A DNA stretch of 64,000 nt from Ulota crispa (taxonomy: Eukaryota; Streptophyta; Bryopsida; Orthotrichales; Orthotrichaceae): assembly GCA_963920765.1 (NCBI GenBank), contig OY987243.1, positions 9,610,001 through 9,674,000 on the forward strand, written 5' to 3'. A program made the position numbers and the translations under genes. The notes under the pieces were generated by a model, which saw only the letters and a program-made list of their open reading frames with translations, did not search any database and was not told the DNA's origin. Position 1 is the stretch's first letter. Every line of letters begins with the position of its first letter. Below, piece after piece: positions 10,842-61,203 of this stretch.

Positions 10842-11791
10842 TTAACCCCTAAAGGACCAAGGGGTTTTTTCAAGAAACATTGTCAAAAACTTTGTTTTGT
10901 GAGTATGTTGATAAAAAATGAAAATATTTTTTGGAAACTTCAATCATATAAAACTATAATAAAATATTTATCCAGTGAATGGTAAGAATATTAGCACATT
11001 TGACTACATGGATTGAAAGATTATAAGATTTAAAGTGAGAAAAATAACTTTTATTCATTCTTGAAAAGCAAGGTCAATAAACTTTGAGCCCTCCTAGAGT
11101 GAATTTCTACACAAAAATGAGCTTCTTGACCATTCATAAGTATATGATTTTAGATCTAATCATGAAAAATTTTAGAAGCAAATACAGAATCTAGTTTATT
11201 CAAAATCACCCTCCAATGCAAGGAGATAAAGTGAATTGGTAATACACTAATCATTTTTTCATGATTTCTTGTGCAATGAAGAAGTTCTTTATTTGAAAAC
11301 AGAATGGTGAAAAATTAGAGACAAAAATTTGAAACATGTGAAAAAAACTTCAAGAATTTTGACTTTAGAGATTGCAAGATGATAGGGCCTGAAGCTAGAA
11401 GAAAATGTTTTTTCTTGAAATTGCCCAAATACAATTAATAAAGTTTTACTCCTCTTAGAATGTGATTTGATAGCTCAATTTTTTTTGTTTTTTTGACAAT
11501 TGCATACCATATTTTATTAGTTACATACATGCCAAATTTCAAAAGTTTGTGAGAGTTTTAACATAAGATTCTTAAAAGATGCTCAAACTGCTTGAGTTAC
11601 CCAAATTCTTTAGGGCAAAGTAACTTTTGAATTACGCATCCAATTGGGGAAAAAATTACATTTCTACTTGGAGAATACAAATTTACACTTTGTGTAACAA
11701 TTTTGAGAACATTCAATAAAAATTAACTTTGTATGACCCTACCCAAGTTCCCAAGTATATGTTGAACAGACACTTGGTCCTTTGAGGTTAA
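10842..11791. mobile_element. TTAA element, family A (~0.95 kb)
   Basis: It starts TTAACCCCTAAAGGACCAAG and ends CACTTGGTCCTTTGAGGTTAA, so the termini are inverted repeats of CCCCTAAAGGACCAAG with TTAA on both sides. The body has no coding capacity. The sub-terminal CCCAAGTTCCCA phrase is shared with 21960-22878. The right TTAA is shared with the next element. Confidence 0.75.
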
Positions 11792-12007
11792 CCCTTGAAT
11801 GCCAATCGGCCATCTTTGACAGTATGTACGGCCGTATTTGAGCTGCTATGAGAGTTTTCCAAAAAAACTTATGCACCCACCATCGTACAATCCCTTCAAT
11901 ATGAATGATTTTAACACTTAATTTCAAGCTAATTCAAACTTCTAAATATTGGTTGCGACCCTATTTGGTACTGTATCTCTAGAGCCCAAGGGCCCTTCAG
12001 GGGTTAA
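11788..12007. mobile_element. Short TTAA element (220 bp) abutting the previous one
   Basis: It starts TTAACCCTTGAATGCC and ends GGGCCCTTCAGGGGTTAA, whose reverse complement is TTAACCCCTGAAGGGCCC. It uses TTAA 11788-11791 as its left boundary, the same four bases that close the element to its left. Confidence 0.7.
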
Positions 12008-12732
12008 AACACCAGGCTCCCCAGATGGTTGATTCTGTACTCCCTCCCGTTTACTTTATTTTCGCACTAACTTACAGATTATTCTTAAAAATTGTGCCCA
12101 TTGTCTTTAGTGCATGTCATTTCAAATAAAAGCCTTGTTCAAGGTCTCATGGGCCATGGCTACTCAGGCATTCCAAGAATCCACAAATACTGTATGATGT
12201 CAAATATCCATAACAAGCGTCAAACTCTAATGAAAGACACCCCTGCCTAACCGAGAAGGCTGAGGCCCTGAGATCCAGGGCAATTCTACAAAGGGACCCC
12301 TTCATACATGTGTCTCAAGGCCAGGTGACACCAAAATAAAACGATGTTTTGTAAAAAGAAAGGTGCCCGCCTATACTTCTTTGTGTAAAAATAGATTTCT
12401 TGAATATTTACATCCAATTTTCTAATATATTCCAAGCCAATAATTTTGAGTGTCCAAAAACCAATGTCTCCAACCTTGTGCTCTTGAATGGTGGAGAGGT
12501 TATCTTTAGAAGAACAACATATGAAACATTAAGCAAAGTGAGTGACCCCCAATTTTTCAAAAAAACAACATATTTCTTCATTCATTCCAAATCAATTGTG
12601 TTGGCATGTGTGGCCATAGCATCAAGAAGCATTCCTTTTAAATGACTAAATTTAGCAAAGAGCTTGTCAATTGGATTCCTATTGTCATAAAATTGTGAAA
12701 ACCCTCGGTTTGAATTTGAAATCTTTGCACAT
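12008..12732. other. Intergenic stretch with a solo Stowaway end
   Basis: TA followed by CTCCCTCCCGTTTAC at 12038-12054 matches the 5' terminus of Stowaway MITEs, but no matching right end was found nearby. An 81-codon open frame at 12400-12645 has no recognisable motif and is not called as a gene. Confidence 0.45.
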
Positions 12733-13590
12733 TTAACCCCTAAAGGACTTAATCCATTTTGAAAAGGTCAAACTTCATGTCTAAGCTCAATTTTGCATTT
12801 TAAACTGTGTTCAAACAACAATTTTATACTTTTATTCCTTGAAACTATGAATGATATATCACTTCAAGAAATTTCAATTTGTTTCATGAAAATTTGTAAT
12901 TGTCATCAAATTTCTTTCAAAAAATGAACATAAATAAGTTAAAATAGCAAAGAAAATCCAATTACTTGAATTTTTTTCAAGAGATGCAAGTAGCATTAAA
13001 GATTAGTGTGAAAAAAATTCAATTAGTTATTTTACTTTTTACACCCAAAATAGCCACAACAAAGAATTTAAAATTAAATTTGACTATCAAACCAAGTTCA
13101 TCCTTTTATTTGATTAATTAATATGATTTTGTTATTTTCTACTGGAAGAGACATTCATTTTCTATTTAAGTTATTCTTTTCAATAAATTTGATGGAAAAT
13201 TTGAATTATTGTGATTTTTTAAAGCTATATGTGGAAATAAAATCATATCAACGAGAATACATATTTAAAAAATCTATAATTTCTACCATAAATGAATGGT
13301 AGAATGAGAAACATAGTTTTGTAGTTTAAATTTAAAATGCATTTAAAGAGTAGAAAATATGAATAAAACACACACCAGCTTGTGTTGTATTTAACACTTG
13401 GAGCTTTCAATGGCAATAACTCTTTCAATTTTTGACATTTTTTAAAATAATTATATAGACTAGAAAGAAAACTTGTCAAGTTTCATTTTCTTAGTTGTAA
13501 CCATGTACCAATAGTTGATATTTTAAAAGTTACTATGAGAGTTGACCAAGGTGCATCCACTTTCTGAATGCATAAACCCTAAAGGGTTAA
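12733..13590. mobile_element. TTAA element, family A-like (858 bp)
   Basis: It starts TTAACCCCTAAAGGACTT and ends AACCCTAAAGGGTTAA. The outer ten bases form the inverted repeat CCCYTWARGG, and TTAA is on both sides. It is AT-rich with no coding potential. Confidence 0.6.
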
Positions 13591-13621
13591 CAATGTTCTT
13601 AGTGAGTGATCTTGGCAATTT

Positions 13622-14026: not shown

Positions 14027-14964
14027 TTAACCCCTAAAGGACCATTGTCTCTTGGGGACAGGCTGGATTTTGGGCATGTATCTATGGCTAAAATACTTTG
14101 TGTGATTTTCTGAAATTTTTATTGAAAATGGGGAATTCAAAAATCTATATGAGCATTTAATTGTTTCTTCATTTGGACATTTGACAAAGAAGTTATGCAT
14201 GAATTTATGAAAATTTGGGGAGGACTGCCTGTCCAGGCAACCCAAAAGCTTTTTTAAAAATTACTTTTTTTAAAAACTCAAATTTGAAATTGGTTCTTTA
14301 GATTTTTTTTATTCATGAGAAGCTTTGAATCATTCAATTTCAATCAATGACATGAAAGTTACAAGGAGTTTTTGTTTGCAGGCAATTATGGAATCTCTAC
14401 TCTAAAATAAACTTTGAAGTCCTTTATTTTACTCAATTTTCAACATTTTGGAAAAAAAACTAAACCAAAGGAAGAAAATTGTTTATCACAACATTACCAC
14501 CATTGGGATTAGCATTTTTCATTTCCATGATTAAATTCTTGACAATTTAGTGTTTTGACTCATTCTCTACTTCTTTTTACTTACTAATTTTTCCCATGTG
14601 TTGTGTAGTTCCAATTGATTTGAAAATTCTCCCACACATACCTAACTTGATCTCCTACATGGAAAAAATAAAGTGCAACTTTGGGTAGAGCAATTTTTGT
14701 GTTATAAGAGTGGTCAAAGGCTTCTGAAATTTTTGGATAGCATGGAAAAAAACTTATTTTTTCACTTTAGATGTAAATATCTCACTCCTCTCCTCTTGGA
14801 GTCAGCTGATTTTTTTCCCACAAGTACCTCTTCTAGTCTAGGCAAGATCCTACAATTGGATTCCCGAAAACAAAATATAAAATCCCTTTATTCTAAACCT
14901 CCTAGAAGTGACATTTTTTTTCGTGATTTTGGCCAAAAAAAGGGCTTGGTCCTTTCGGGGTTAA
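14027..14964. mobile_element. TTAA element, family A (938 bp)
   Basis: It starts TTAACCCCTAAAGGACC and ends GGTCCTTTCGGGGTTAA, whose reverse complement is TTAACCCCGAAAGGACC; only one of the 13 bases after TTAA differs. The sub-terminal block TTTTGGGCATGTA then GGCTAAAATACTTTGTGTG recurs in 15078-15806 and, inverted, in 42949-43916. Confidence 0.85.
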
Positions 14965-15077: not shown

Positions 15078-15806
15078 TTAACCTGTAAAGGCCCAAGTGG
15101 CCCCTCGGGGGCCAAGTGGGGTTTTGGGCATGCACTTATAGCTAAAGTACTTTGTGTGATTTTTTGAAACTTTTATGGAAGATGGGGAATTCAAAGATTT
15201 GAACGGGCATCTAATTTTTTTTTTCAATCCGACATTTATTGAAAAAGTCAAAAATGACTTTCTAGAAAATGGGAGAGGGCGGGCATCCCAAACACTTTTT
15301 TAAAATTTTCATTTTTCAAAAATAAAAATATGAAATAGGTTCTTTAGACTTTTATATACGTGGGGGGCTTTGAATCATTCAATTCTGATAGATGAGATGA
15401 AAGTTATGAGAAGTTTTAGTTTGTTGGGAGGTGTGGTTTTTTCTCTCAAAACCACACCTCCCAACAAACTAAAACTTCTCATAACTTTCATCTCATTTAT
15501 CAGAATTGAATGATTTAAAGCCCCCCACGTATATAAAAGTCTAAAGAACCTATTTTGTATTTTTATTTTTTTTAAATGAAAATTTTAAAAAAGTTTTTGG
15601 GCCACCCTCCCTCCCTCGATTCTAGAAATTCATTTTTGACCCTTGAATAAATTTTAAAATGAAGAAAAAGTCTAATGCCCTCGCAGATTTTTGAATTCCC
15701 ATTTTCCTTAAGAGCTATAAAAAATCACACAAAATAGTTTAGTTGTAAGTACATGCCCAAAATCTCACTTGGCACCCGCGAGGCCACTTGGGCCTTTAGG
15801 GGTTAA
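15078..15806. mobile_element. TTAA element forming one giant palindrome (729 bp)
   Basis: It starts TTAACCTGTAAAGGCCCAAG and ends CTTGGGCCTTTAGGGGTTAA. The whole element is an inverted repeat: two ~360-bp arms meet near 15442 at GGGAGGTGTGGTTTT and its complement. Arm sequence matches the left ~400 bp of the family A element at 14027. It looks like a foldback derivative made from two left ends, and its transcript would fold into one long hairpin. Confidence 0.85.
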
Positions 15807-16863: not shown

Positions 16864-17093
16864 TTAGAAATGCAATATGGTAGCACAATTTGAAAATATT
16901 GGCGCCAAGAGTTTGGACTTCTCTCCAAAATGGGGTGCAGAAAAATTCGTTCCAATTTTGAAAGCCAAGTCTCCCAAAGAAAAACGACACAATTACATTT
17001 AAACCATTTTTGTATTTACTTTTGACCCTTTACAACCCAGCAAAGTTGGAAAATTTAGTTGAACAAGTGTTCATGAAGTTGGGACATGATATA

Positions 17094-17418
17094 AGGTAGA
17101 AGGCTCAAAAACCTTCTAGGCTCTAAAATTGCTCACCCTCTAAAATGTTCTCAATTTGTACATGTATTTTTCATAAATTTTCATAGTGTATAGTGGATGT
17201 ACATTTGAGGAAATGCATCATTTTAGAGTCCTATGACCTTTCCACTTCAAAATTTCATAACTAATTTTACAAAATTCCAAAAAATATGAAACAACTTGGG
17301 TTAGATGTCAATTCTTCTTATCTTTCAAAGAAATTTTACTGAAAAAATATTTCAAGAAGTTCTACCTCCCAAAATTCAATTTCAACCCTTAGATGGTCGG
17401 TTTATGAGCCTCCTACCT
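17094..17418. mobile_element. TA-flanked MITE, terminus AGGTAGGAGGCTCA (copy 2)
   Basis: It starts AGGTAGAAGGCTCA and ends TGAGCCTCCTACCT, with TA at both outer edges. Length is 325 bp, and it lies in the opposite internal orientation to copies 3 and 4. Confidence 0.75.
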
Positions 17419-17420
17419 TA

Positions 17421-18115
17421 TGATGTGAATTGCTTCTATAGTAAGGTGGCTTTCCTTTGCCACAATCATGCATCAAGGAGGTCTCATTTATTGGTTCTAT
17501 TAGACAGACCGTGGCAAAAGTTAGGCAAAACCTGTAAATAATGTTTGAACATTACAGTAGCAACACCCATAAGTGTGAGTTTAAGCTTTATAGGGTATGT
17601 ACCCAGGTTGGACAAGCTTAAAAAAAATATTGCTAGATTAGAAAGAAGGAATGAAAAATCTTGGTATCAATTTCAAAGTTTCAATTGCAAGCATTTGTCC
17701 ACAAAGATTTTTCAAAGTCCTAAATCATTGAAATTGTATAGTTGTGTGTAAGAGATGCTAAAAACAATGCTTAGTGGTTCATAAATAGTGAGATGAGGCA
17801 CTCAAAATTATCATGTTAGTCACCCACAACCACCACTTTGTTACCCACAACCATCACTTCATCACCCATAACCATCACTCTATCACCCATAACTATTTGA
17901 ATTATACCTTATTGTGCCAGTGACGCCCATGGCGACGGTCATGGTTAGTGGTGCTTCTACCTTACATGCAAAAAATTACTAGAAGTCAATACTTTGTTGA
18001 CAAATAAATTTGTCATACCCTAAAGTTAAACAAACAACACTCAAGACATGGTTATCATCTATAGATTCCCAACTTATCTTCTTTTTCACTGCAACTAAGC
18101 CAGCAAGTCTGGATC
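17421..18115. other. Gene-free stretch with short local repeats
   Basis: Around 17818-17895 the phrase CACCCACAACCACCACTTTG recurs four times with variations, a small decayed minisatellite. The 68-78 codon open frames have no recognisable features. Confidence 0.4.
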
Positions 18116-18349
18116 TTAATCCTTAGATGACCATAGGGCATAGTATATACGCTGATGTATAATTGTCATTTGCTACCATTATTATTATTTAATTTGGAAT
18201 CTCAAGTAGCTCACTAGAACCGCTTTAATCTAATCTCCAACTTCTTCATTGATCTCAAATATAATGGAGGTGTGGATCCATTCCAAATACAAGAAAAATA
18301 CCACGTATTATACTAGTAGCAAGGGGCCTTCCAGTCGTTTAAGGGTTAA
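18116..18349. mobile_element. TTAA element, family D (234 bp)
   Basis: It starts TTAATCCTTAGATGACC and ends CCAGTCGTTTAAGGGTTAA. The interior matches the inverted copy at 56829-57056 over its full length, sharing GGGCATAGTATATACG and GGAGGTGTGGATCCATTCCA. Two copies of nearly equal size and sharing both boundaries confirm the element ends. Confidence 0.8.
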
Positions 18350-18443: not shown

Positions 18444-18680
18444 ACCATTTAGGATAACTCCAACCCCTACACAATGTTACAAACTACATACAAAGAAATA
18501 AACATAAGCCACAATCCGATTCCCGTCACTACAGCAAAAAATATTAAATATTATAGAAACCGGACACCGAGGTTCACCTTTTGTATCTCAAAAATACATT
18601 GTAGAGATTCTGTTGGAAAATTGTCTGCAAAGAATTCCAGGAAAATTTCAAAGTGGTGAACTCTGTACTTATTTTTATAT

Positions 18681-19313
<633 letters not shown>

Positions 19314-19693
19314 GGGAATTGATATGTGTACTACACCCTTTCAATTATTGTACCACATTTCACAGTAAATTTTAGATTTCTACCATCATAAAGCTAAATT
19401 TGAAAACTTGGAATTCAGATTTGGACTTAGAGATCATGATTTAGTCTAAAATCATGAAAAATAGTTGCAATTCAATAACACCCAATGAAAAAATTTAGCT
19501 AAGGAGAAAAATGTTACTTTTACTTTTGTATTAGCTTTTTCATTGGGTGTTGTTGAATTGCAACTATTTTTCATGGTTCTAGACTAAATCATGATCTCTA
19601 AATCCAAATCTGAATTCCAAATTTTCAAATTCAGCTTTATGATGGTAGAAATCTAAAATTTACTCTTTGGATGTGGTACACATATCAATTCCC
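19314..19693. mobile_element. Foldback MITE, family GGAATTGATATGTG (copy 2)
   Basis: It starts GGGAATTGATATGTGTAC and ends with the complement. The two arms, for example GAGATCATGATTTAGTCTA and its complement, pair over about 180 bp each around a centre near 19505. It is sandwiched between the ATAG microsatellite and an (AT)n tract. Confidence 0.8.
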
Positions 19694-19847: not shown

Positions 19848-20825
19848 TTAACCCTTAACCCTTTAAGGATCATGCGACCATATTTTGGTCGCTGGGAGAG
19901 GTTTGGAATTTGGTCTTGAAGAACGCATGTGATCACAAGAACTTTGCATTCATCGAAAAAATTAACAATGTAATTGGATATGTGAGTTGACAAATAATGG
20001 TGTTTATATGGCATGGCTTCAAAATGTGTATCTTTTTTTTTTTTGTCAAAGATGGATCAAAGCAACAATGCGGTACATCAAACATCCGAGAAGAATGTCA
20101 AATTTCAATTGCACAATTCTAAAAAAATTCAAATTGCTTAAGAAATACACTTGTATTGTTTTCCTACACGATAGTAGTATAATTGTAGTATTTGAAAATC
20201 TACTAAAATAGTGTTGTCATTTTGACTTTAAAATTTGTCATTCTACATTTAAAGCCAATTCTTGATTGTTTTCTTCAATTGGATTTTCCAAAATAATAAT
20301 CAAATTTCTTGTAGAACCATTTTAGGGTAGGAAAGAAAGTGGGGTTTTTGACCCTTTTTGTCCACTTAGCTACAACTTGTGATTGCTATTTTTGTCTACT
20401 TTCTGTGAAACCAATCTTATTGTAAAGGTGGGAAACCCTACTTTTTAGAAATGTAAGGCTCTTTTCAATCAAAGCCTACATAAAGAGCTAACATTCAAAA
20501 CCACACAAGCAAGAAACACAAGAGATTTTCCGCATATGGCTCACTCAATCATTATAATGTTTCACCTCCAACGGTAAATCTAGCTAAAATTTTGGTGCTT
20601 TATAGTAAACAAGGTGTACTTCCCATTCATACAGTTGGATTGCTGAAAATGGGTCCATATTTGAGTCAATTGCACATCTAAGCTTACAGCCTCTATTTGT
20701 AGTGGATTTTGTGAAAATGGGTGTGGCCCTTAAAGGGTTAAGCGTCAAGGTGGACGTATTGCGTCTATCGGGAATACACGGAGGCCGTGTATCCACGGTC
20801 ACCCGCCCCGGCCTTTAAGGGTTAA
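19848..20825. mobile_element. Tiny TTAA element (95 bp) split by a second TTAA element
   Basis: Read across the inner insert, it starts TTAACCCTTAAGCGTC and ends GGCCTTTAAGGGTTAA, giving the inverted terminus TTAACCCTTAA. Its own segments are 19848-19858 and 20742-20825; the remainder is the inserted 19855-20741 element, which landed in the TTAA at bases 8-11 of its left terminus. Confidence 0.7.
19855..20741. mobile_element. TTAA element, family B (887 bp), innermost of a triple nest
   Basis: It starts TTAACCCTTTAAGGATCATG and ends GGCCCTTAAAGGGTTAA. The full-length sibling 35741-36631 (891 bp) lies in inverted orientation, with matching ends (AAGACCATATTTTGG next to one terminus) and matching interior near TTCTTGTAGAACC. 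No coding capacity is seen. Confidence 0.85.
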
Positions 20826-21111
20826 GGGTTTTGAACATGACACGTATTAATAAACATCTAGCAAATTATAGAATCCTATTAGGAATAAAAAAATAATGAG
20901 TTTGCACTTTCAAATGTATTATTTAGATACTGTGAGAATTAGTTGAGAATTTTTAAAGAGCAAATTGCCATTGCACCCATAACCAACATTAAGGTTTCAT
21001 GTTCACATATTGTACATCCTTGTAATTACATCTATTCATTTCCACATAATTTCCAAGATTTCAGAGGTGATGGTTGTGGGGACACTAATGCTTATGCGTG
21101 TTCCTACTTTA

Positions 21112-21959: not shown

Positions 21960-22878
21960 TTAACCCCTAAAATTCTTTTGTATTTAGAGGTCCAAAACTG
22001 CTTCAAAATACTAGTCCCCAAAGCATGGTCAAAATCTTCATTAAAATTTATTTTTGAACAAATTTAATCGTAGGATCCTTTGGTTGACTTGCACAAGTAC
22101 ATTGTCCCAAAATTTTAAAATGAACATCCCCATCAATTGCAAGATCAATGTGCCCAAATTTCAAATGTACGCTTTTCTAATCCTTCTAGAAGGTGAAGTT
22201 TTGTTTTTCAAACGTTTTAGAGAAAAACACATATGTTGAATTTCTTGTGCAATTTTGGCAATATGTTGGAAAACAGGTTGAAAGCATATATAAAAAATAA
22301 TAATCAAAAATAATTTTGGATTCATTTTCACAAATATTGTAAAGTGAAGGGCATTGATGAATGAAAGATATAATTGATATGCTAATAAATTTTGGAAGAA
22401 TTTGAAAATTGTTAATCCCAATGGTGAGAATGCTCTAACAAACCATTAGTAATTTTAGTTTTCATTTTCATTTGAAAATTTTCAAAATTGAGAGTAAAAG
22501 ATAACTTTATACATTTTTACTACCCTCTTCCTACCTTCATTGCCCGCAAAATGAAACTACTTTTAACTCTTACCTCATTATTTGGAATTGAGTGATTCAA
22601 TTTTTTTTGAGTAGGTATCAATCTATACAATTCTATAAATAAAAAAATAAAAAATTTAGAATAATTTTTTTGCTGCCCAATTTGACATTAAAATTGAAAA
22701 AACCTCCTAACTTATGCATTACTTATTGGAATGACATGAAATAAAGCTTCACATGTAGATTATGATGAGTAGCATTCATCCTAAAAAACTATGAAAAATT
22801 TCTAAATTATGATGTCAATAAAGCCTGCCCAAGTTCCCATAAAGCCCAAAGTGGGCTCCTTGGTCCTTTAAGGGTTAA
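21960..22878. mobile_element. TTAA element, family A (919 bp)
   Basis: It starts TTAACCCCTAAAATTC and ends CTTGGTCCTTTAAGGGTTAA. The right sub-terminal CCCAAGTTCCCA phrase is shared with the element at 10842. Only about nine bases of the left terminus still match. Confidence 0.7.
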
Positions 22879-25150: not shown

Positions 25151-25475
25151 CTTACTTTCTTGAAATGGTAACAATGTTTGCCATGAGTGCTTTGAGAAGG
25201 TGAGCAATGTATTGGCCCTGCAAGTGCCATGTGCCATGTTTTGCGGTGTGAGGCAAGGGTGCTTTTTCACATTTCAAAAATTCTCAAATTTCAAAATTTT
25301 ACTATCCAGAAATTTAATTTTGGAAATTTGAATTTAGATTTGGATTTAGAGACCCTGCTTTAGTCAAAGGGCCCAGGAAGATATTTCAATTGAACAATAA
25401 AAAAAAATAGGGGGCAAATAATTACTATTACCATCGGCTTCACATTAAGAAACAAGACGCATGGCACTCGAAATA
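25151..25475. other. Remnant of the GGAATTGATATGTG foldback family
   Basis: Segment 25285-25440 resembles the interior of the foldback MITEs (dark match around TTAGATTTGGATTTAGAGA) but the ends are lost. No gene is seen. Confidence 0.4.
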
Positions 25476-43916: not shown

Positions 43917-43946
43917 TACATATCATTTTGTTTAGCCCTCTAATGC

Positions 43947-44970: not shown

Positions 44971-45134
44971 TTAAGCTCAAGTATAGAATGAAAAAAGTCA
45001 ATTCTCACAAGGCTTTTCCCTTTGTATTTACAACATTAAATCTTAAATGCAGTGGTTTTACAAAATAAATTATCTCTTTTTTTCTTTTTCTTTTTGTTGT
45101 TGAAGAGTCATGTTTTGAACTAAAAAGCTAGTAT

Positions 45135-46497: not shown

Positions 46498-47397
46498 TTA
46501 ACCCCTAAACTACCAAGGCCATTTTCTGCCAAAAATCACTCAAAACTGTCTTTATTGCTGCATTCATCAAAATTTTCAACGAAATATTATTCTTGAAAAT
46601 TTAACCATAGGATCTTGTAATGAACTTGTAAAAGAAGAAGTGGTAAAAATTTTGTGACATTTGAGTGTACGGATTGAAAGTTATGAGCATTTGAAGGGAA
46701 TTTTTTTGTTTTTTGTTTTTTTTTCCATTGTGCCCAAAAAATTCAGATGGCTTTGACTGATGTTTGCTGATTTTTTTTGCACTACGGACCTTGAAGTTGT
46801 AATTTTTTTCTTGTAGGTAATCAAGTTAGACCTTTGTACACCAATTTTCAAGGCATCAAAGACACAAAACACATCCTAAAATATATTGCAATGCCACTAT
46901 ATGACAAGTTTTGCAAATACACTATGACATTTTTGAGTGAGGTTTCCCACCACATGTTTTTAGATATGAGTAATCTAAATGGTAAGTTTGAAGATGAACA
47001 TGTATTTCAAATGTCAAAAAAAGAGAGAGAGTTAAAAACCTCAAAAACTCTAAAGTTTAGAAGCTCCCAAAGCCCAATTTGACCTCCTAATTGGAAATGA
47101 AAGGGGAAAAATGGGGACCACGAAAGCAACATGTGGCAACCCCCTTCCTTGCTCCCCCCTTTAAAGTTAATATTTTCTCCCTTGCCCAAGTTGCCCCTTG
47201 AACTGCTTTTGGCCAAAAAAATCCCATAACTTGTGAACCGTGTGATACAATCACATGGTTTTTTGCATCCCACTAACCTTATACATTCCTACACACTCAT
47301 AAAAAGTTTCAAAAAATCATGTAAAAATTTGAGATCACACAAACCTATTCAAAATCCTGAAAATCCCTCGAGGGGACTTTGGGGCTATAGGGGTTAA
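46498..47397. mobile_element. TTAA element, family A-like (900 bp)
   Basis: It starts TTAACCCCTAAACTACCAAG and ends GGGGCTATAGGGGTTAA. The right TTAA (47394-47397) is also the left boundary of the next element. Confidence 0.7.
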
Positions 47398-47752
47398 CCC
47401 CTAAACATCCAAAAGGACGTTTTTTGTCCTTTGCCTCTTGAAAAAACATTCTATATGGTAGAAGAAAGGAAATTTTCATTTGATTTTTACCCAGAAGTGA
47501 TCATAAACACATGCTTTGTCATGGAAGGCAAAAAATAACTTCATCAAATACACTCATATTTTTAGACAATCCAAATTGTGAGAAGATCCATATTGCCCTT
47601 CTTACAATTTTGTGAGGTCAGCATGTACTGTTGACATTTGTAGCGAGCTGGGCACTTATTACACCAATCATAGTTTTGAAATCCTTGAAAAACACTGTAG
47701 AAGTCACTGTAGCGGACTGGCCACGAGGATGAGCCTAACGTTTAAGGGTTAA
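47394..47752. mobile_element. TTAA element (359 bp) abutting the previous one
   Basis: It starts TTAACCCCTAAACATCC and ends CCTAACGTTTAAGGGTTAA. It shares its left TTAA with the neighbour. Confidence 0.65.
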
Positions 47753-47994: not shown

Positions 47995-48941
47995 TTAACC
48001 CCTAAAGTCATAAGCTAAGTTTTTCACCAAAATCATTCCAAAATTGCCATTTCTAGTATAAGTATCAAGTTTTAGAGAAGAATCATTTTTTGACACATGT
48101 AATTGTAAGATCTTGTAATACACTAGTATCCAAAGATGTGAAAAAAATTTAGAAACTATCATCATGTAAATTGTACAATATTTGAGTTTGAATTGACAAA
48201 AAGCCATTATTAGTCCTTGCAAAAATTTGGGCAGCTGCACTTCACGAGGTCATATTTGTATGAAAAAAATTCCAAAATGGTTGCGCAATTTTTTGAAGAT
48301 TTTCTTCAAAGAAAGTTGGGTACACACTTGAAAACTTTCAAATCATTTGGAATTGTACAACATATAGGGAAAAAATAGTAAGTAAAAAGAAGTAGCTAAT
48401 GATTCAAACCATTAAATTGTTAAGAACTTAATTATGGAAATGAAAAATTATAATCCCAATGGTTGAAATGTTGTGATAAACAATCCACATCCTTGGGTTT
48501 TGTTCTTTTTCCAAAATATTGAAAATGGAGTAAAATAAAAGACTTCAAAGTTATTTTAGAGTAGAAAAACCATAATTGCCCAAAAACAAAATCTCCTCAT
48601 AACTTTCATCTCAATGATCAAAATGGAATGATTAAAAGCTTTCCAAGTATATATAAATCTAAAGAACCAATTAATTTCTATTAAAAATTTCAAAAAATGT
48701 AATTAATAAAAAAGATTTATGAGCTACTTGGGTTGCCCGACAAGCAGAAAAAACAACATATCATGCAATAACTTTTGAATCATGATGTCAAAAGTTATGA
48801 AAATTGTTGGACCTTAAAGCTACTCCTTAGATACATCATGTGTGAAAATTTCAAAAAAATAAAAGTGAAAAACCCATTGGTAGTGAGTTGCCCGAAATTG
48901 TTATGTTGCCAAAAAAAGGTATTCAAGACTGTAGGGGTTTA
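47995..48941. mobile_element. TTAA element, family A-like (947 bp), right TTAA decayed
   Basis: It starts TTAACCCCTAAAGTCATAAG and ends ACTGTAGGGGTTTA. The interior contains family A phrases (AACTTTCATCTCA, then CTAAAGAACCAATT). Confidence 0.6.
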
Positions 48942-49722
48942 GCAATTCTGCGGCAAATTGCAACAAATTACAAGGAGTTTGAGGTAGTACATATTTTTCC
49001 CGGGTAAGACAATAAGAATTTTTGGGATTGCAATTATTTTATAATTTCATTTGCAAAAGTGAAATTACCGTGAATTTTGGGAGTCAAAAGTGTTTTGGAC
49101 CCATTGTCAACATCCAAACTCATTGAATTTTGATAATAACCAAACTACTTTTTGCTCATTACTTCCTACTTTCCTATTCACCACTTGGGACGTGTGTCAT
49201 GACTTAAATGGTCCCAACCTTGACAAGGAAAGAAAAATGCATTCCAAGGCTTGGTTGAAAACTTGTCTTGGTTGAGATTGGAAATAACACACCCTATAGG
49301 TTGAGTATGGGACAATGTTGGTTGGGTGCACTCACCTCACTAATAAGGTAGAAGCACCCAAATGCAACACTAGCCTTTTAGCGACATTTAAAATTAAACC
49401 TAAAAGTAAGCACTCCTGCATCCAAAGAAGACATGCATGCCCCTAAATCAAATACACAAGTTGACATAAGGGAACAAAAATTGTGTAAGTGGCAATGTAT
49501 GATTGGGTGTGACATGGTCTTTTTTTTGTCGCTAGTGTCCACAATAGGTCAATCTAGGGAGTTACATTCAACAAGTCAAATTTGTTTATATGATCTCAAA
49601 AAATTCCGCAAACAATTTTGCTTGAATGTGTACTCATTTCCTAATAATCACATGCCATTACATTCTCAAAAGACCCTCCAAATTACCACATCTGAGGAAA
49701 GTGTCGCATTTGGGTACTTCCA
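48942..49722. other. Gene-free stretch with a solo MITE end
   Basis: AAGGTAGAAGCACCCAAATGC near 49344 resembles the AGGTAGGAGCACCC terminus without a partner. The 112-codon open frame at 49433-49771 runs into a MITE and is not called. Confidence 0.35.
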
Positions 49723-50025
49723 AGATAGAAACACCCATAAGCGTCAATGTCCCCATAACCGTCACCTCTGAAATCTTGGAAAATCTGTGGAAGTGAATAG
49801 ATGTAATTATAAGGATGTACAACATGTGAACATGAAACCTTGATGTTGGTTATGGGTGCAATGGCAATTTGCTCTTTAAAAATTCACAACTTATTCTCAC
49901 AATATCCAAATAATACATTCAAATGTACAAACTCATTTTTTTTATGATCTTGTAATTTGCTAGTTGTTTATTAATAGTTATCATGTTCAAACCCCTTAGT
50001 TTAACGTTTATGGGTCCTCCTACCT
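49723..50025. mobile_element. TA-flanked MITE, terminus AGGTAGGAGCACCCATAAGCG (copy 3)
   Basis: It starts AGATAGAAACACCCATAAGC and ends GGGTCCTCCTACCT, 303 bp. It is collinear with 36953-37261 and uninterrupted. Confidence 0.75.
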
Positions 50026-52300
50026 TACCTTATGGCAGTATCCTCAGCGACTCATTAGGGTTAATCCCTGAGCGCCCAGCCCGTATCCTCCAAAATCTAT
50101 GGCGTGCACGAATAGGTGGAAATCGAGTCTCGGCATTGTCGTCAACGTGGAGGTCAGGTTCTTCGTGAAGTAAGTTACCTCTTTGCGATTGTTCATTTTT
50201 GCAGGATAAAGCCCCTGTCTTGGCATGTTAGGGTTTCATTTTTATTATATCGGAGCTAGAGGGAAGCTTTGCAAGCGTTGGATAGACTGGCAGCAGCATG
50301 CAGGAGAGTCCGAATCGTCCAGAGATTGTGGTATGTTATGCTTTTTCTCGGACTGTAGCAATTGTTGATGGTGAAATCACAAGCATGCTGGATGCGGTGG
50401 ACGTTTCTTTTTTTTTAGAGCAAGTTGAAAGAATTGAATTGAGTCAACAAGAGCGAGTTAATGCGACTCCCGGTTGTTTAGGAAGCGTTCTTTTTGTTTT
50501 TGAAAACCCTAAGAGTATTGTGGTAGTCTCGTGAACCGTCGTATCTTAGGGTTTGTTAATTGGTCGTCCATGAACCTATTCTTTCCTGGTCGTATCGGAG
50601 CACAACAATGCTACTCGTATTAATACCCTTCTTCAGCTGCGAAGGAATGTAAGTGTGTGGATACTTAGTAATTCTGTCTCGTTAGGTTGACGCGAGGCTC
50701 ACGTGTGAAAATGCTGGCTAGCGATGAGCTTTCTCCCGGTCGTCTCGGTAAAGAAGTCGGAGCAAGATAGGACATTTGCTTTTGCGACGTTTCTGCATGC
50801 CATTTAGATTGTACACGAAATTTGGTGAATTTATTACTAAGAAGCTGAGCTGCAACGGGAAAGAGCAAGTGTTTACAGCAGAGAGGACAGCCGAGGGAGG
50901 GGAGTAGAAATGGTCTTGTTGTTAGTTGTTTCAAGGGGTAGAGAGCGGTAGAGAAGGTTTTAAGCAGGTCTGATATGGAGCAAACGAGAAGCTGGCTTAA
51001 TCAGTTCCAACCAAGAGGGGATAGGGTGAGTCCAAGAAAAAGAGCCTGACGGGAAGCAGCAAGGATTTTCTGAAGAATCTCCGGCAAGGGGGATGCGAGT
51101 GATGAGTTGCCCTCAAGTAAGCTTATCACCAGGCAGGCAGCTGCTAAGCAATATATCGAGAATCACTACAAATCGCAAATGAAGAATTAGCAAGACCAAA
51201 AACTACGGTACTTTTGCTTTGATTTCCTCCTCATTCCGCCTCATGGAACTTCTGTCCGTTATTATTTCTTGTCATGTACCTCAAGCACTCTCATCTGTTT
51301 GAAAGAAAATTATAGAAGCGGTGAGGAGAATCGAAATTCTTGAGCTGCTTATGCTCTTTTGATTGCATTGCAGTCTGCATGTTATACTCAGGAAGAGAAA
51401 TGACATAGTGGACAATATTGCTTTGGATGAGAATTAATGTTGGATGCAATTTTCTGTGTAAGCTTATTTTTCATTATGCTAGCTGTATTTCTCCCCGACT
51501 GTGCTTCTGAATTGAGATTCCGTAGTGTGTCAGTATTGCTTTCCTCTTACAAGCCCTTGTCCTTTTCATCTTTGGTGATGTGTTTGTTCAAACATCTTGA
51601 CATAAGCTCTTCTAAATTTGAGGCAATGGAAGACCTACTTTATTTTTAAGTCTTAATTATCACTCTCCTCGGATCCTCCGGTTGCACATTACTAGTGCTG
51701 TCCTGTGCTTGGTTCGGTGTTACTAAATACAAAACCAATGAAATAAAAATAAAATGAATAATGATTATACTTATAACAGTCGAAATCACTACATGTTGGT
51801 CTAATGAAAGACCAAAAGAACTTTGTTATAGTATCACAATGCCAATTGCTGTCATGATATTATAATATCAGTTATGGATATAACGCAATTACAACAAAGT
51901 ATTGTTTTAACATTATAACGACTAATGTTCAAACATTGTAATTTCAATTGTTTATTGTTTCTATACAATATCAATGCTTGTAATAATGACAGTATTTTAG
52001 TGCAATACTAATGTATATTGAAATAACATTATTTCAATACTCCTTGGAATGACTTCTGTTGTTTCAAAATGAAAACAATGTTACATACCGAAAATGATCA
52101 AAACAATGTCAATATTGTTATACACTACTTTGAACTTTGAGATGTACTTGAGGTTCTCATATGGAGGTTCTCATATGGAGCTTAATCCAGTTGAGGTTGA
52201 TATCATTGCAGAGCTCTGTTCCTTGAGGTGGCTTGCAGTCTCGGGGTGGGGTGTCTGTTCTGGCGTGGAACAGCGGTTTCTGCTTGTGACAATTCAAGCT
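50026..52300 (+). promoter_or_regulatory. Possible promoter and leader of the dikinase gene
   Basis: A GC-richer patch at 50040-50330 contains a plausible donor (GAA/GTAAGT at 50167), and acceptor-like CAG sites occur near 52213, so a 5'-UTR intron is possible. In 51760-52130 the DNA is AT-rich with many ACAATRTTG-like words. A 15-bp tandem duplication (GGTTCTCATATGGA twice) lies at about 52152-52180. No other gene is recognised; the 78-codon frame at 50298-50534 has no domain. Confidence 0.3.
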
Positions 52301-55300
52301 ATGGCTGGCACCGGGATGATGCAATGCGGGCAGCTGGGGCTGCGCGGCAGCACCTTGCAAGGGATGCGCAAAGCGGGCGTCACACAGAGCAACGACGCTG
52401 TGAGAACCACAACAAGGCACCGTGGCAGGAGCGTGGGAGTGCGGTGTGGGGAAGGGGTGAAAGTGCGCGTGCGTTTGGATCACCAGGTGCAGTTTGGCGA
52501 ATGGCACGCCATCCTGGGGTCGGCAAAGAGCATCGGTGCGTGGCAGGAGAAGGTGCCCATGAAGTGGACGGAGTCTGGGTGGGTGGTGGACCTGGAGGGG
52601 AAGCCCGGGGAGACTGTGGAGTACAAGCACATCATCGTCACGCATGACGGCAATGTCATCTGGGAAGAGGGGCCGAATAGGACCATCTCCTTGCCGAATG
52701 CCGGAGACGTGGAGCTCGTCACGCACTGGGGCGAAACGCAAGAGCAGTCGCAGTTCCTCAACGGTCGCTCTCAGAACGGACACGCTCAGAATGGGCACGT
52801 CGGGATGCTGGAAGAAGAGCAGCAGCAGCAGCAGCAGCCCCAGGAGAGCACTAGCGTGGTTGAAGAGGCCGTGCATGAGATCTCCACCTCCTTCGTGAAG
52901 TCGTGGCAGGGAGCCTCCGTGAAGGACCGCAAGGATAGGTCCGGGAGCTGGGATACCACGGGCTTGGATGGGCCAGCGTTGGCGATCGTCGAAGGTGACA
53001 AAAGCGCCAGCAATTGGTGGCGCAAGCTGGATGTGGTGCGTGGTCTTCTGTCTGGAGAGGCCGCAAAGACGGAGCGCCTGAAAACGCTTGTGAACGCTGC
53101 AGTGTATTTGAAATGGATCAACACAGGGCAGATTGTTTGCTACGAGGACGGTCAGCATTACCGCCCCAGCAAGCACGCTGAAATCTCCAGGAGAATTTTC
53201 GTGGAGCTTGAACGTATTGCTGGTTCGAAGGATGTCGGCCTGAAGGAGAAGCTAGTGATCCAGAAGATTCATCCCTGCCTGCCTGCTTTCAAAGCCGAGT
53301 TCACCGCGTCTGTTCCCTTGACGAGGATTCGTGACATCGCGCACCGGAACGACATTCCCCATGATTTGAAGCAGGAGATCAAGCACAACATACAGAACAA
53401 GTTGCACAGGAGTGCCGGCCCGGAGGATCTAGTGGCCACGGAGCTCATGCTTGCACGCGTGACGAAGAATCCTGGGGAGTACAACGAAGCCTTCGTGAAC
53501 GAGTTTCGGACGTTCTACGCGGAGCTCAAAGATTTTTTCAACGCGGGGAGTTTAACCGAACACCTGGATGGGCTGCGATCTTCCACTGACGACTCGGGTC
53601 TTCCTATCTTGGACCACTTCCTCTCCAGCAAGGCGAACCTGGACGCAACGAACTCCAGTGAAAACGTCTTCGATAGAGTGCTGGGAACGCTACATGCACT
53701 GATTTGCCTCCGGGAGCGGCTTTTGCAAGGGCTGGAGAGTGGGCTTCGAAACGACGCCTCCGACGGAGCCATTGCCATGCGCCAGAAGTGGCGTCTGTCG
53801 GAGCTCGGGTTGGAAGACTACTCGTTTGTGTTGCTGAGCAGGTTGATTAATGCTTTTGAAAGCGAGGGAGGTGCTGCATGGCTGGCCGAGGAAATCAAGG
53901 GTGCAAGAGTGGGCAAATGGGCACCGGCAGTGACCAGCCTTGCCATGGCCATCCAGCAACTGGGGTTGTCAGGGTTGCAGAAGGAAGAGTGCGCTGCAAT
54001 CAAGAATGAGTTGCTGACATGGACAGCTACGGGCGTGCCCAATGGCGACACGACGGCCTGGGTCCTGAGGTTGAAGGCCACCATCGATCGTGTGCGCCGC
54101 GTTGCGGAAAGCTACACCGACACCGTCTTGCAGCTCTACCCGGATTACGTGGAGAAGCTTGGCAAAGCCCTAGGAATTCCAGAGAACACCGTGAGGACCT
54201 ACACAGAAGCGGACATTCGCGCAAGTGTTGTGTTCCAGATTGCGAAGCTGTGCTCGTTGCTGCTCAAGGCTTGCCGACTGACCGTCGGAGGGGATGGCTT
54301 TGACGTGATCATGCCGGGACGAGCCACTGGTGTCCTGGTTGAGGTCGATAGAATCGTGCCAGGATCCCTGCCATCGTCGGCTACTGGCTCCATCATATTG
54401 CTGGTGAAGCACGCCGATGGTGACGAAGAGGTGAAGGCCGCGGGCTCCAACGTGGCAGGGGTGATTCTGCAACACGAGCTTCCCCACTTGTCTCACTTGG
54501 GTGTCCGTGCTCGTCAGGAGAAGGTTGTGTTCGTGACGTGCGACGACGAAGAGAGGTCAGCGAACCTGCGCACACTGGTGAAGAAACAGGTTGCGCTCGC
54601 AGCGTCGGCTGAATCAGTCCAGGTCGGATTGCATGATGGTTCACCTCAAGAGACAGCAGCATCAAGCTCCGATTCAGTTGAGGCAGGCGGTGATTCTACA
54701 TCGTCGCATAAAGCCAGTGCTGCAACGAAGCAGAGCGTGGTCGTCCGAAGCCCCGCGGGTACAGTTCTGGACCTTTCAAAAGCGACTACAGAGAATTCCG
54801 GATCCAAGGCAGCTGCGTGTGGCGAGCTAGCGGTTTTAGCCGAACAGGCTAAGATATTCCGCAGTTCTCAAGGAGTGCCTGCAGCCTTCCGTGTGCCCAG
54901 AGGCAAAGTGATCCCTTTCGGAGCAATGGAGGACACCCTTGAGAACTCGGGCTCCTCCCAACAGTTCCAGTCGCTCCTGGAGACCGTGGAGACGGCTGCA
55001 TTGGAGGGAGGAGAACTGGACAAAGTCTGCAACGAATTACAGTCCCTCGTTGCCGGCCAACGACAGGCTAAGTCGATTCTAGACGAGCTGGCCGCAGATG
55101 GCTTCCCCACGAATGCTCGGCTCATCGTGCGGTCAAGTGCAAACGTGGAGGATTTGGCTGGAATGTCCGGAGCTGGATTATACGAGTCGATTCCTAACGT
55201 GAAGCTTTCGGAGCCGGAGAATTTCGGCAAGGCGGTGGCGCGAGTGTGGGCGTCCCTGTACACAAGGAGGGCCGTCTTGAGCCGAAGAGTGGCAGGAGTG

Positions 55301-55765
55301 CCGCAGAAGGAGGCGTCGATGGCGGTCCTCGTGCAGGAGCTTCTATCTCCGGAGCTCAGCTTCGTGTTGCACACGGTGAGTCCAATCGACCAAGACGAAG
55401 CCGTGGTGCAGGCTGAGATTGCCGTCGGGCTGGGCGAGACCCTGGCGTCTGGAACCAGAGGCACACCGTGGCGTCTGGCAGCCAACAAGTTCGACGGGAC
55501 GGTGAAGACGCTGGCATTCGCGAATTTCAGCGAGCAGATGATGGTTCGTGACGAGGCGAACGAGGCTGACGGCAGCGTTGTGAAGGCGGTGGTGGATTAC
55601 AGCAGCCAACCCCTGTCCACCGACGCCGAGTACCGACACAACATCGGCCAGAGCCTTGCCACTGTGGGCTTCTTCTTGGAGAAGCAGTTCGGCGATCCCC
55701 AGGACGTCGAGGGCTGCGTCATCGGCAAGGACGTCTACATCGTGCAAGCAAGGCCGCAGCCTTGA
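52301..55765 (+). CDS. Phosphoglucan, water dikinase (chloroplastic), single-exon reading frame
   Basis: The enzyme transfers the beta-phosphate of ATP to C3 of glucosyl residues in starch already phosphorylated by GWD1, helping plastid starch breakdown (known for the PWD/GWD3 family). In this 1154-residue protein, residues 1-50 are rich in Arg, Ser and Thr and low in acids, a plausible transit peptide ending near VRC. Residues 53-150 are a CBM20 starch-binding domain (GEWHAILGS, GAWQ, VEYKHIIV, WEEGPNRTI). A short poly-Gln follows at 174-179. A long helical region leads to the phosphohistidine domain with SHLGVRARQ; His732 is the predicted catalytic histidine. The C-terminal nucleotide-binding domain (about 820-1154) contains RSSANVEDLAGMSGAGLY from 944 and ends VYIVQARPQP, as expected for PWD. 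The frame is open upstream to 52094, but that part is AT-rich and unlike the family, so ATG 52301 is preferred. There is no intron, whereas Arabidopsis PWD has many. No stop, frameshift or missing motif is seen, so it looks functional. Confidence 0.92.
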   Translation: MAGTGMMQCGQLGLRGSTLQGMRKAGVTQSNDAVRTTTRHRGRSVGVRCGEGVKVRVRLDHQVQFGEWHAILGSAKSIGAWQEKVPMKWTESGWVVDLEGKPGETVEYKHIIVTHDGNVIWEEGPNRTISLPNAGDVELVTHWGETQEQSQFLNGRSQNGHAQNGHVGMLEEEQQQQQQPQESTSVVEEAVHEISTSFVKSWQGASVKDRKDRSGSWDTTGLDGPALAIVEGDKSASNWWRKLDVVRGLLSGEAAKTERLKTLVNAAVYLKWINTGQIVCYEDGQHYRPSKHAEISRRIFVELERIAGSKDVGLKEKLVIQKIHPCLPAFKAEFTASVPLTRIRDIAHRNDIPHDLKQEIKHNIQNKLHRSAGPEDLVATELMLARVTKNPGEYNEAFVNEFRTFYAELKDFFNAGSLTEHLDGLRSSTDDSGLPILDHFLSSKANLDATNSSENVFDRVLGTLHALICLRERLLQGLESGLRNDASDGAIAMRQKWRLSELGLEDYSFVLLSRLINAFESEGGAAWLAEEIKGARVGKWAPAVTSLAMAIQQLGLSGLQKEECAAIKNELLTWTATGVPNGDTTAWVLRLKATIDRVRRVAESYTDTVLQLYPDYVEKLGKALGIPENTVRTYTEADIRASVVFQIAKLCSLLLKACRLTVGGDGFDVIMPGRATGVLVEVDRIVPGSLPSSATGSIILLVKHADGDEEVKAAGSNVAGVILQHELPHLSHLGVRARQEKVVFVTCDDEERSANLRTLVKKQVALAASAESVQVGLHDGSPQETAASSSDSVEAGGDSTSSHKASAATKQSVVVRSPAGTVLDLSKATTENSGSKAAACGELAVLAEQAKIFRSSQGVPAAFRVPRGKVIPFGAMEDTLENSGSSQQFQSLLETVETAALEGGELDKVCNELQSLVAGQRQAKSILDELAADGFPTNARLIVRSSANVEDLAGMSGAGLYESIPNVKLSEPENFGKAVARVWASLYTRRAVLSRRVAGVPQKEASMAVLVQELLSPELSFVLHTVSPIDQDEAVVQAEIAVGLGETLASGTRGTPWRLAANKFDGTVKTLAFANFSEQMMVRDEANEADGSVVKAVVDYSSQPLSTDAEYRHNIGQSLATVGFFLEKQFGDPQDVEGCVIGKDVYIVQARPQP

Positions 55766-56383: not shown

Positions 56384-57180
56384 CTCCCTCTGCCCCCTCT
56401 AAAAACGTCCAAAAAGCTTCTTTGCGAAGGATTAATGTGTTTTAGTCTTTGTGCTTGTTACACATACATTCTAGAATCAATGCACCATCTAGCAAATGCA
56501 AAATCTCCAATTTTGATGTTGATGTTTAGACACCCAAATTTCATGCAAAAAGTACCATATTTGTGTATAGTTTGTGAATGTTGTTAGCTCCTCATTATTT
56601 TAGTCTTTGTACTAGTGACACATGCATTCTAGAATCAGTATACCATTTACCAAACGCATGCAAAATCTCTAGTTTTGATGTTGATGTTTAGACATCTAAA
56701 TTCCATGCAAAAGTACCACATTTGTGCATGCTGCTAGCTCATTATTGATGATTTAAAGAATAGTAGCAATAATGGTACCTTACATGGGCAAAGCCAAGCT
56801 TGCTAGGGGAGGAATGCTCTCTAATTGCTTAACCCTTGAACGACAAGAAGGCCCTTTGCGGCGAATACAATATGGTGTATTTTTCTTGTGTTTGGAATGG
56901 ATCCACACCTCTATTACATTTGAGACCAAAAAAGAAGTTGGAGTAGATCAATGTGGTTCTAGTGAGCTACTATCCCAAATTAAAAAAAATTGTTGGTAGC
57001 AAATGACAATTATACGTCGGCGTATATATTATGCCCTATCGTCATTCAAAGGTTAACTTGCCTCCATGAGATCATTGAACATGACAAATGCTTCCTCAAT
57101 GTTAGAAATTAGCAAAAGGGAGCTTTTTAGTGGTACAAAAACCGTATCTAAATTGGAGCTTTTCAGAGGGACAGAGGGAG
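56384..57180. mobile_element. Stowaway MITE (Tc1/mariner-type) with nested TTAA element
   Basis: It starts CTCCCTCTGCCCCC and ends GGGACAGAGGGAG, with TA directly outside both ends (56382-56383 and 57181-57182). This is the canonical Stowaway terminus. The interior has a ~140-bp imperfect tandem duplication (about 56440-56583 and 56599-56731) and a 228-bp TTAA element at 56829-57056. Confidence 0.9.
56829..57056. mobile_element. TTAA element, family D (228 bp), nested in Stowaway
   Basis: It starts TTAACCCTTGAACGACAAG and ends GTCATTCAAAGGTTAA. It is the inverted sibling of 18116-18349, with matching interior throughout. Confidence 0.85.
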
Positions 57181-57895: not shown

Positions 57896-57902
57896 GAATA
57901 TA

Positions 57903-59493: not shown

Positions 59494-59687
59494 TACCTTT
59501 AGACTCTTGGAAACCCTTCTCTCCAATTTTTCTCTCCTTCCAAGAGTATAAGTACATTTGGATGGATGAGAAAAAAAAATCTATCCATATGGATGGGATA
59601 TGTTTGACTTTTGACCCCTCAAACCACAAATGCAAGTTTTGAATAATAAACAAATCAAAAGATGAAAAGACATATCTCTACCATATT

Positions 59688-60448
59688 TTAACCCCTAAAG
59701 GACCAAAGAGCCCAATATGGCCAAATGGGGTTCTTGGAGGTGTAAAAGTAGACAAAAAAGGCATTGCATGTTCAAGTTTTGGTTTGCCACTTAAGTCCAA
59801 ATGGAGCTAAAAGTCCAACAAAACTTTTTGTTCAACTTGTTGTTCCTTGAAGCTTCTAGATTTTGCACCTAGACATTTAAATTTGCTATTTTTAATACTA
59901 AAGCTATTAGTGGAAGTGTATATAGGCATTGCACATTGCATTGTGGATGGGATGGGTTGGAAGCCCACAATCTCATGTATAGGGGAGAAGGTTGGTGACG
60001 TGTCACTTTGTTTTCTCTCGATTGGACAAGGTTTTTGTAGCTCTAAAGTAGTGAGCCAGCTAGATCCACTTACTTTGAATGACCATAAGTTTTGGAGTTT
60101 TTTCCCATTAGAGGAGTTTTTTTTCCCCATCAAGTATAGTTGGACATGGTCTCATGGGATCAATCATAAAAATAAAAAAAATTGGGAAAAAATCACATCA
60201 AAGTCCAAATCCATATTGTGAACTACTACCCAAATTAACAAATATGAGATTCTCAACAATGGGCATTTTGCAGATTTACTTGGATTTGAAATCAGATTGG
60301 CCTTAAACTTTTGATTTATAATTGGATACAGAATGACTTGTTTGGATTGTGTGATTACTTGTGCAACTTTCTAAAAATTGAAGGAATGTGCTAAAGGTTC
60401 CATATTGGAGGTATGCCAAATTTTCATAACACAACGCTTAGGGGTTAA
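59688..60448. mobile_element. TTAA element, family C (761 bp)
   Basis: It starts TTAACCCCTAAAGGACCAAAG and ends ACGCTTAGGGGTTAA. The terminal match is about nine bases. The interior is collinear with 9609-10365. Confidence 0.7.
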
Positions 60449-61053
60449 GAAATGTTTGTTACCTTGTATTTCTTTGAAAATCCTTTGCCTATTTTTTCAT
60501 AATTTGAAAAAGGAGAGACTTACAAGACGGTAACAAACAAATTTTGCAAGCAAGCTCATTCTTGGAGGAAGGGTATGAACTTTTTCAATAGCTCTACCTC
60601 TAGACTATTAATCTTACGTAACACGTCTTACAAATGACCTTCCACATAGTAAGAGTGTTCTAAGTAAATTTGTTTTGAAATTCTATCCAAGTCATAAATG
60701 CTATAATACATTCCTTGCTGCAACAAAATGAGAAATAACAGTATAATTATCAGCCTTCTACCCTCACACTCAATGATTCTAATCGTAGAAAATACAACCC
60801 AAAGGAACAAAAAATGTTGATAAGCTGAGAGAATCGCGCATAAATTTGTCAAGCTCAAATTGTTCAAGTTTTGTGCATTAGAAGCGTTAAGAGTGTGTCA
60901 TAATACCAAGAAAACGAGTTCTAGCTCAAAAAAATTGTTTAATTTTACTGAAGGCAAGCAAATTACGAAAAAAAAATTGGGTTGACCCACAACCCCTTTG
61001 ATTGAAGGTACCTAAAACTTCACCAAAAATATGTAAGGCATATCCAAGTCTTA
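60449..61053. other. Gene-free stretch
   Basis: Open frames of about 80 codons on the minus strand carry no recognisable motif. No repeat boundary is seen. Confidence 0.4.
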
Positions 61054-61203
61054 TTAACCTCTGAACGGCCCTCGGGAGCTGAGCTAAGGGCCCATATTTT
61101 TTGAAACTACCCTTGCAATCAAACTGCTGAACAACGCGTTCCACTAGATCAGTATATGGTGGACATATGGCCACAGAGGGCGTTTGGGACGTTTAAGGGT
61201 TAA
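61054..61203. mobile_element. Short TTAA element (150 bp)
   Basis: It starts TTAACCTCTGAACGGCCC and ends GGGACGTTTAAGGGTTAA. It shares AGAGGGCGTTTG near the right end with 16256-16449. It lies about 500 bp downstream of the prolidase stop codon. Confidence 0.75.

Follow-up and report, generated by a model that had tools for sequence, protein, structure and literature searches.

Evidence for high-copy piggyBac-type miniature elements in the genome of the moss Ulota crispa

The stretch of DNA analysed here, hereafter the window, comprises 64,000 nucleotides of chromosome 2 (C2:9610001-9674000) of the 274.8-Mb genome of the moss Ulota crispa (Bryopsida, Orthotrichales) and contains many short elements that are bounded by TTAA and whose ends start with CCC. 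These are almost certainly non-autonomous miniature inverted-repeat transposable elements (MITEs) of the piggyBac type, moved into TTAA sites by piggyBac transposases that have a triad of catalytic aspartates (DDD) and are encoded elsewhere in the genome. Eighteen elements were paired in the window, one of them nested within another, and all 18 carry TTAA at both ends, TTAA having belonged to the criteria by which the ends were chosen. Their sizes range from 80 to 978 bp (the 978 bp counting a nested element of 887 bp), plus one of 2,026 bp. Together they cover 11,459 bp, that is, 17.9% of the window, or 14.7% without the doubtful 42949-44974; an initial annotation of the sequence had given close figures, about 22 segments over about 20% of the window. 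In keeping with the size of MITEs, 17 of the 18 are shorter than 1 kb, and they are putatively non-coding. The paired elements and the related features that lie outside the 18 pairs are the following (window coordinates; names beginning with L denote loci elsewhere in the genome).

9607-10365: degraded relative of the 59688-60448 family; the right end (10365) alone is clear, TTAACCCCTAAGCC, 12/15; outside the 18 pairs
10842-11791: 950-bp non-autonomous element, TTAA on both sides, the right one common with 11788-12007; full-length copy in L003
11788-12007: 220-bp element, ends TTAACCCTTGAATGCC / TTAACCCCTGAAGGGC
12733-13590: 858-bp element, end identity 11/16; right end less sure
14027-14964: 938-bp non-autonomous element, end identity 15/16; full-length copy in L005, 89%
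15078-15806: 729-bp fold-back element, inverted self-match of 84% along its entire length; full-length copy in L007
18116-18349: 234-bp element, 82% to 56829-57056 in reverse, both boundaries alike
19848-20825: outer element, 95 bp without its insert, split by the inner 19855-20741; carries the TTAA duplication
19855-20741: inner 887-bp element in a TTAA of the left inverted repeat of the outer element, end identity 14/16; family of 35741-36631
21960-22878: 919-bp element; full-length copy in L006, 88%, same ends
35741-36631: 891-bp element, reverse relative of 19855-20741, 80% over 842 columns, one boundary in common
36760-36839: 80-bp element, end identity 16/16
37597-37842: 246-bp element, end identity 15/16
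42654-42878: 225-bp remnant, well preserved at one end only (42878); similar to elements 14027 and 15078 and to L007; outside the 18 pairs
42949-44974: 2.0-kb element or composite of nested elements, end identity 16/16
46498-47397: 900-bp element, TTAA common with 47394-47752
47394-47752: 359-bp element, paired TTAA ends
47995-48941: element of about 947 bp, decayed right end with TTTA for TTAA, TAGGGGTTTA near 48941; outside the 18 pairs
56829-57056: 228-bp element, same family as 18116-18349
59688-60448: 761-bp element, paired TTAA ends; its family also has the degraded 9607-10365
61054-61203: 150-bp element, paired TTAA ends

Within the family of 59688-60448, the degraded copy 9607-10365 aligns with 59726-60448 at 72% over 769 columns, with one boundary in common, and a further recurring group is formed by 14027, 15078, 42654 and 42949. 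The full-length copies of 10842, 14027, 21960 and 15078 found elsewhere have the same TTAA boundaries as in the window. Bases 1-922 of 47995-48941 match locus L008 from the left end of L008 onwards (71%). A pairing of 47995 with 50064 was rejected, the decayed TTTA end near 48941 being more likely. Insertions in or against other elements comprise two abutting accepted pairs (11788-11791 and 47394-47397), one doubtful case (18346-18349) and the nested one; a preference for such sites is not claimed, as by a rough reckoning they do not clearly exceed the expectation from the 460 TTAA sites.

The ends are far more frequent in the window than in simulated sequences. The motif TTAACCC was found 39 times (17 forward, 22 reverse), compared with a mean of 10.7 and a maximum of 21 in 200 simulated runs. 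In 200 copies of the window simulated by a first-order Markov model the exact motif TTAACCCYTAAAGG, present 10 times in the window, did not occur, and TTAACCCYTNANNG, counted 25 times on both strands, reached a mean of 0.1 and a maximum of 2. The association with TTAA is also apparent when TTAA is left out of the pattern: 25 of the 34 occurrences of CCCYTNANNG follow directly on TTAA, as do 10 of the 11 of the exact CCCYTAAAGG. Near-consensus ends, defined as agreeing with at least 13 of the 15 fixed positions of TTAACCCYTRAANGNCC, number 36 in the window and 0, 0, 0, 1 and 0 in five simulated controls; a threshold of 11/15 is near noise (70 window sites compared with 32-53 in the controls). 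The 18 paired elements account for 31 of the 36, leaving five unpaired ends at 16449, 42878, 45681, 50061 and 62292.

Genome-wide, exact TTAACCCYTAAAGG occurs 18,588 times (9,337 forward and 9,251 reverse), compared with 3 occurrences (1 + 2) of the reversed pattern used as a control. This amounts to one per 14.8 kb in the genome and one per 6.4 kb in the window, which has about twice the genome-average density of ends. If exact ends made up 10/36 of all ends elsewhere too, the genome would hold very roughly 67,000 ends. The first eight forward TTAACCCYTAAAGG sites on C1 were taken with 1.5-kb flanks, and all eight of these left-end-anchored loci have a facing right TTAACCY end 708-1,112 bp away, a figure that has no chance control; four of the eight contain full-length copies of window families.

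Duplication of the target was observed at the outer element 19848-20825, which sits in a high-copy repeat represented in the window by two other copies that lack the element. The occupied site reads CCATAAGCGTCAAT[TTAA]CCC...GGG[TTAA]GGGTTTTGAACATGA, and the empty site, CCATAAGCGTCAATTTAAGGGTTTTGAACATGA, with a single TTAA and no element, was found letter for letter in 6 among the 100 genome copies listed. The junction 33-mer has 2,921 genome copies within two mismatches; the 100 copies listed (all on C1, without mismatch) have TTAA at the site in 13 cases and CTAA in 87, in a search whose pattern permitted only C or T at the first base of the site. Two rounds of insertion into TTAA are visible here, 19855-20741 lying in a TTAA within the left repeat of 19848-20825. 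The 33-mer junction is contained in a repeat of about 300 bp found in the window at 36952-37263, 49722-50027 and 20823-21111.

Transposases of the kind that such elements would need are encoded in the genome. The domain PF13843 (DDE_Tnp_1_7) gave at least 120 matches at 116 places on C1-C11, all over the cut-off and the best at 1.3e-73, with four places carrying two matches each; no PF13843 match was found in 14 control genomes. The open frame P0001 (L041) contains the DDE_Tnp_1_7 core at 8e-60, and phmmer related it to the solved chains 6x67 ('Transposase', 4e-20) and 9c0f ('piggyBat transposase', 6e-17). In an alignment of 32 rows, which comprise 30 of the 120 matches and two open frames, 21 rows retain all three catalytic aspartates. 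Among the changed catalytic residues, 13 of 16 are D to N, the change expected from C-to-T decay, and the third aspartate of the L041 open frame is an asparagine. A cysteine-rich motif, searched for with the pattern C..C...C..C...H, follows the core in 17 of 30 domains, in 14 of these at 177-207 nt after the core; the other 13 gave no match, one match (L032) is probably spurious and none was antisense. DNA identity between transposase loci is 64-78% for most matching pairs and 90% for one, and the sequences point to several deep transposase families in one genome.

Several of these transposases lie within elements bounded on both sides by TTAA-CCC inverted repeats: L043 (5,027 bp), L044 (5,102 bp) and L072 (5,556 bp). 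In L071 (5,746 bp) a perfect 19-bp repeat, TTAACCCCTAAATGCCTAA, surrounds the transposase, with TTAA at both ends; this two-ended element carries TTAACCCCTAAATGCC, and its ends are of the type found in the window elements. The right TTAA of L040 (5,656 bp) is mutated to TTGA. Terminal inverted repeats (TIRs) starting with CCC, as in piggyBac, are found at the 36 window ends and in L043, L044, L071 and L072. A separate case is L039 (C1:1177000-1185500), an intron-split piggyBac transposase gene with its core at 3710-4996 (C1:1180709-1181995), in which the three aspartates can be read by eye and the cysteine-rich motif is present; it has a right-type end at 7005 and no TTAACC in its first 3.6 kb. 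L039 represents an element in good condition or, alternatively, a gene that the host has retained.

Kolobok, whose transposase differs from that of piggyBac, would offer a different source for TTAA-flanked MITEs of this kind. It also makes TTAA duplications, but its termini are 5'-RR, as described in an excerpt of PMC9587614, whereas the window ends are 5'-CCC. Moreover, the transposases inside elements with these ends belong to PF13843, are of the DDD type and in many cases have the piggyBac-type cysteine-rich motif, a Kolobok transposase not having been searched for. Mobilisation of the window elements by Kolobok-type elements is, on this evidence, very improbable.

A connection between window elements and transposases was found in the arms of the latter. 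The flanks of L025, L026, L034 and L038 match the window elements 14027, 42949 and 46498. The right end of L038, on chromosome 8, is exactly TTAACCCCTAAAGGACCAAGG, and five of the 20 window segments align with its right arm, in alignments that span 400-619 columns and reach the terminal base (E 5e-92 to 5e-9). The matching parts are bases 1-602 of the 42949 element (71%), 489-938 of 14027 (72%, to the last base), 1-440 of 46498 (60%), 1-472 of 10842 (58%) and 1-380 of 47995 (59%). In addition, bases 1-37 of 19855-20741 weakly resemble the left end of L040 (78%, E 0.004).

It could be argued that an unrelated transposase moved the small elements, the piggyBac genes being bystanders whose ends are alike by chance, and most window families do lack a named transposase partner with a shared interior. 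Against this stand the 400-619 aligned arm columns that the five window segments have in common with L038, up to the terminal base, and the perfect 19-bp repeat that flanks the L071 transposase. We consider this bystander reading very improbable.

The weakest of the explanations, that the elements come from an organism associated with the moss, whether animal, fungus or alga, draws on piggyBac being best known from animals and fungi, and it can practically be discarded: transposases lie on all of C1-C11 of the Hi-C-scaffolded Ulota crispa assembly GCA_963920765.1 (cbUloCris4.1), ends are present on C1, on C2 (the window) and at loci examined on C3, C4, C5, C6 and C8, plant LHC genes lie on C1 and C4 and a LEAFY gene on C4, and glucan-water-dikinase and aminopeptidase P domains are encoded in the window itself. 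Independent support for a moss host comes from the LEAFY exon on C4, in which only 2 of 105 residues are unlike those of PDB chain 4bhk, from the moss Physcomitrium, all further chains being much less similar. It also comes from an LHC protein whose nearest chains, one large multi-domain chain aside, are 8htu and 7xqp.

The pairing of ends has some weak points. Within an element, left and right end have 11-16 of their first 16 bases in common, and 13 or fewer in 10 of the 18; 12733-13590 and 42949-44974 are uncertain pairs. Other observations weigh against the assignment of the window elements to piggyBac transposases. The empty site was demonstrated for one insertion only. A genome search with joined flanks, carried out for 7 of 17 sites, yielded no row spanning the junction among the 40 scored of 2,967 candidates; the pieces recovered matched only the site they came from or a single flank within other repeats. 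The left end of L038 was sought without success in the 4.7 kb that precede its transposase domain. Among eight extended transposase loci, L042 lacks an end pair, and L039 and L041 have a right-type end, with no left end found. Comparison of five two-ended transposase elements and part of L041 with the 20 window segments produced only three weak matches (E 0.002-0.01), and therefore most window families are still without a named transposase partner. Finally, neither a copy with two ends and a completely open frame nor evidence of present activity emerged.

The initial annotation had read the TTAA and CCC ends as piggyBac-type, and this interpretation is supported by the duplication, the transposases and the matching ends. 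The TTAA duplication itself was borne out by one window insertion, with six exact empty copies and two window paralogues. A piggyBac transposase in elements with matching ends, named there as support, was recovered in the form of the PF13843 genes, L071 and L038 (the last with its left end not found). Transposase-bearing elements do exist elsewhere in the genome, as had been predicted; the prediction of a single source element did not hold equally well, because the window has several families, most of them without a named partner, and the sources are probably several.

The window elements are thus almost certainly MITEs of the piggyBac superfamily in Ulota crispa, together with deletion or fold-back derivatives of somewhat greater length. 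They would have been inserted by a cut-and-paste process into TTAA sites through DDD transposases whose genes lie in elements of 5.0-5.7 kb elsewhere in the genome, and these larger elements have ends of the same type, TTAA-CCC-YT-NANNGNCC. The PF13843 transposases would have acted in trans, excision would be seamless, without a footprint, and many copies may be decaying through methylation-linked C-to-T change. Most examined copies are decayed. Between the transposase copies L009 and L018, which are 90.5% alike, there are 328 transitions and 51 transversions, with change about three times as common at CG and CHG sites as at CHH sites (0.40, 0.34 and 0.12, a rough measure). In 30 transposase domains, 64 of the 117 in-frame stops are TAG. 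Three MITE pairs have a weaker bias (transition/transversion ratio 1.3-1.8) and few CG or CHG sites. This substitution pattern would fit the decay of methylated elements.

Other features of the window include two genes. A glucan water dikinase frame at 52073-55765 (+) runs uninterrupted over 1,230 codons, is apparently intronless and has starch-binding, phosphohistidine and PPDK_N domains. An aminopeptidase P-type gene lies at 61700-63759 (-), with AMP_N and M24 domains, and the unpaired end-like TTAACCCCGAAGTGCCC at 62292 falls within one of its open frames. Another repeat family of about 300 bp, 76-83% alike, is found at 6563-6875, 17092-17421, 25473-25777 and 33760-34090; end-like sequences occur in it at 17382 (TCAACCCTTAGATGG) and 25512 (TTAGCCCTTAGATGG). 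The stretch 18551-19344 is a long array of the tetranucleotide GATA in which three reverse frames remain open. An Rfam search of the window gave no match at gathering scores, and no telomere repeat was found in it.

In high copy number and in size, the Ulota crispa elements play a role comparable to that of the plant MITEs Stowaway and Tourist. Those belong to Tc1/mariner and PIF/Harbinger, make TA and TWA duplications and use other transposases. With the piggyBac superfamily (6x67; 9c0f, piggyBat) the moss elements have in common the TTAA target and its duplication, the CCC termini, the PF13843 DDD core and the cysteine-rich motif; they differ in the moss host, in a transposase of distant similarity (phmmer 4e-20) and in a length of 5.0-5.7 kb with long non-coding arms. 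A parallel for small non-coding elements that accompany an autonomous piggyBac is provided by Daphnia mPok1 and mPok2 (PMC4912750); the Ulota crispa case differs in its plant host, with exact end motifs numbering about 18,600, and in fold-back forms such as 15078-15806. The novelty is that of a well-supported high-copy case of piggyBac in a land plant, unusual in host and number, and not that of a new mechanism.

The initial statement that piggyBac is not established in land plants was fair; that it has never been listed would not be, given mentions of plants in print. A 2022 review of land-plant transposable elements has six TIR superfamilies, and a word search of it gave no occurrence of 'piggybac' (PMC9033089); the five superfamilies named for plants in an excerpt of a 2008 paper do not include it either. 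On the other hand, a 2015 survey table has PiggyBac among the superfamilies present in all groups studied (PMC4438587), piggyBac-like elements are said to occur in 'plants' (PMC8086355; PMC10813416) and, for a fern, an automatically generated table of repeats gives 1,230 PiggyBac hits over 122 kb (PMC6890710). In the relevant sections of a 2017 moss paper, only the insect piggyBac appears, as a tool used for marker excision in rice and at that time not yet tested in Physcomitrella (PMC5505980). The main text of the Ulota crispa genome note contains no words beginning with transpos, repeat or piggybac (PMC11803377). A literature search, confined mostly to top-ranked results and covering few subscription papers, found no description of bryophyte piggyBac elements with both ends and transposase.

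A broader proposal, to which we give slightly less than even credence, is that piggyBac is a long-resident, high-copy DNA-transposon superfamily of mosses, with many transposase lineages of ancient divergence and thousands of MITEs, that passed unnoticed since classifications of land-plant repeats make no provision for it; the intron-bearing copy at C1:1180709-1181995 may then serve the host. The presence of about 18,600 exact piggyBac end motifs in a moss alters the list of TIR superfamilies of land plants, and natural plant piggyBac ends and transposases become candidates for genome tools. It also opens the question of whether the superfamily is ancestral to mosses or was gained by horizontal transfer.

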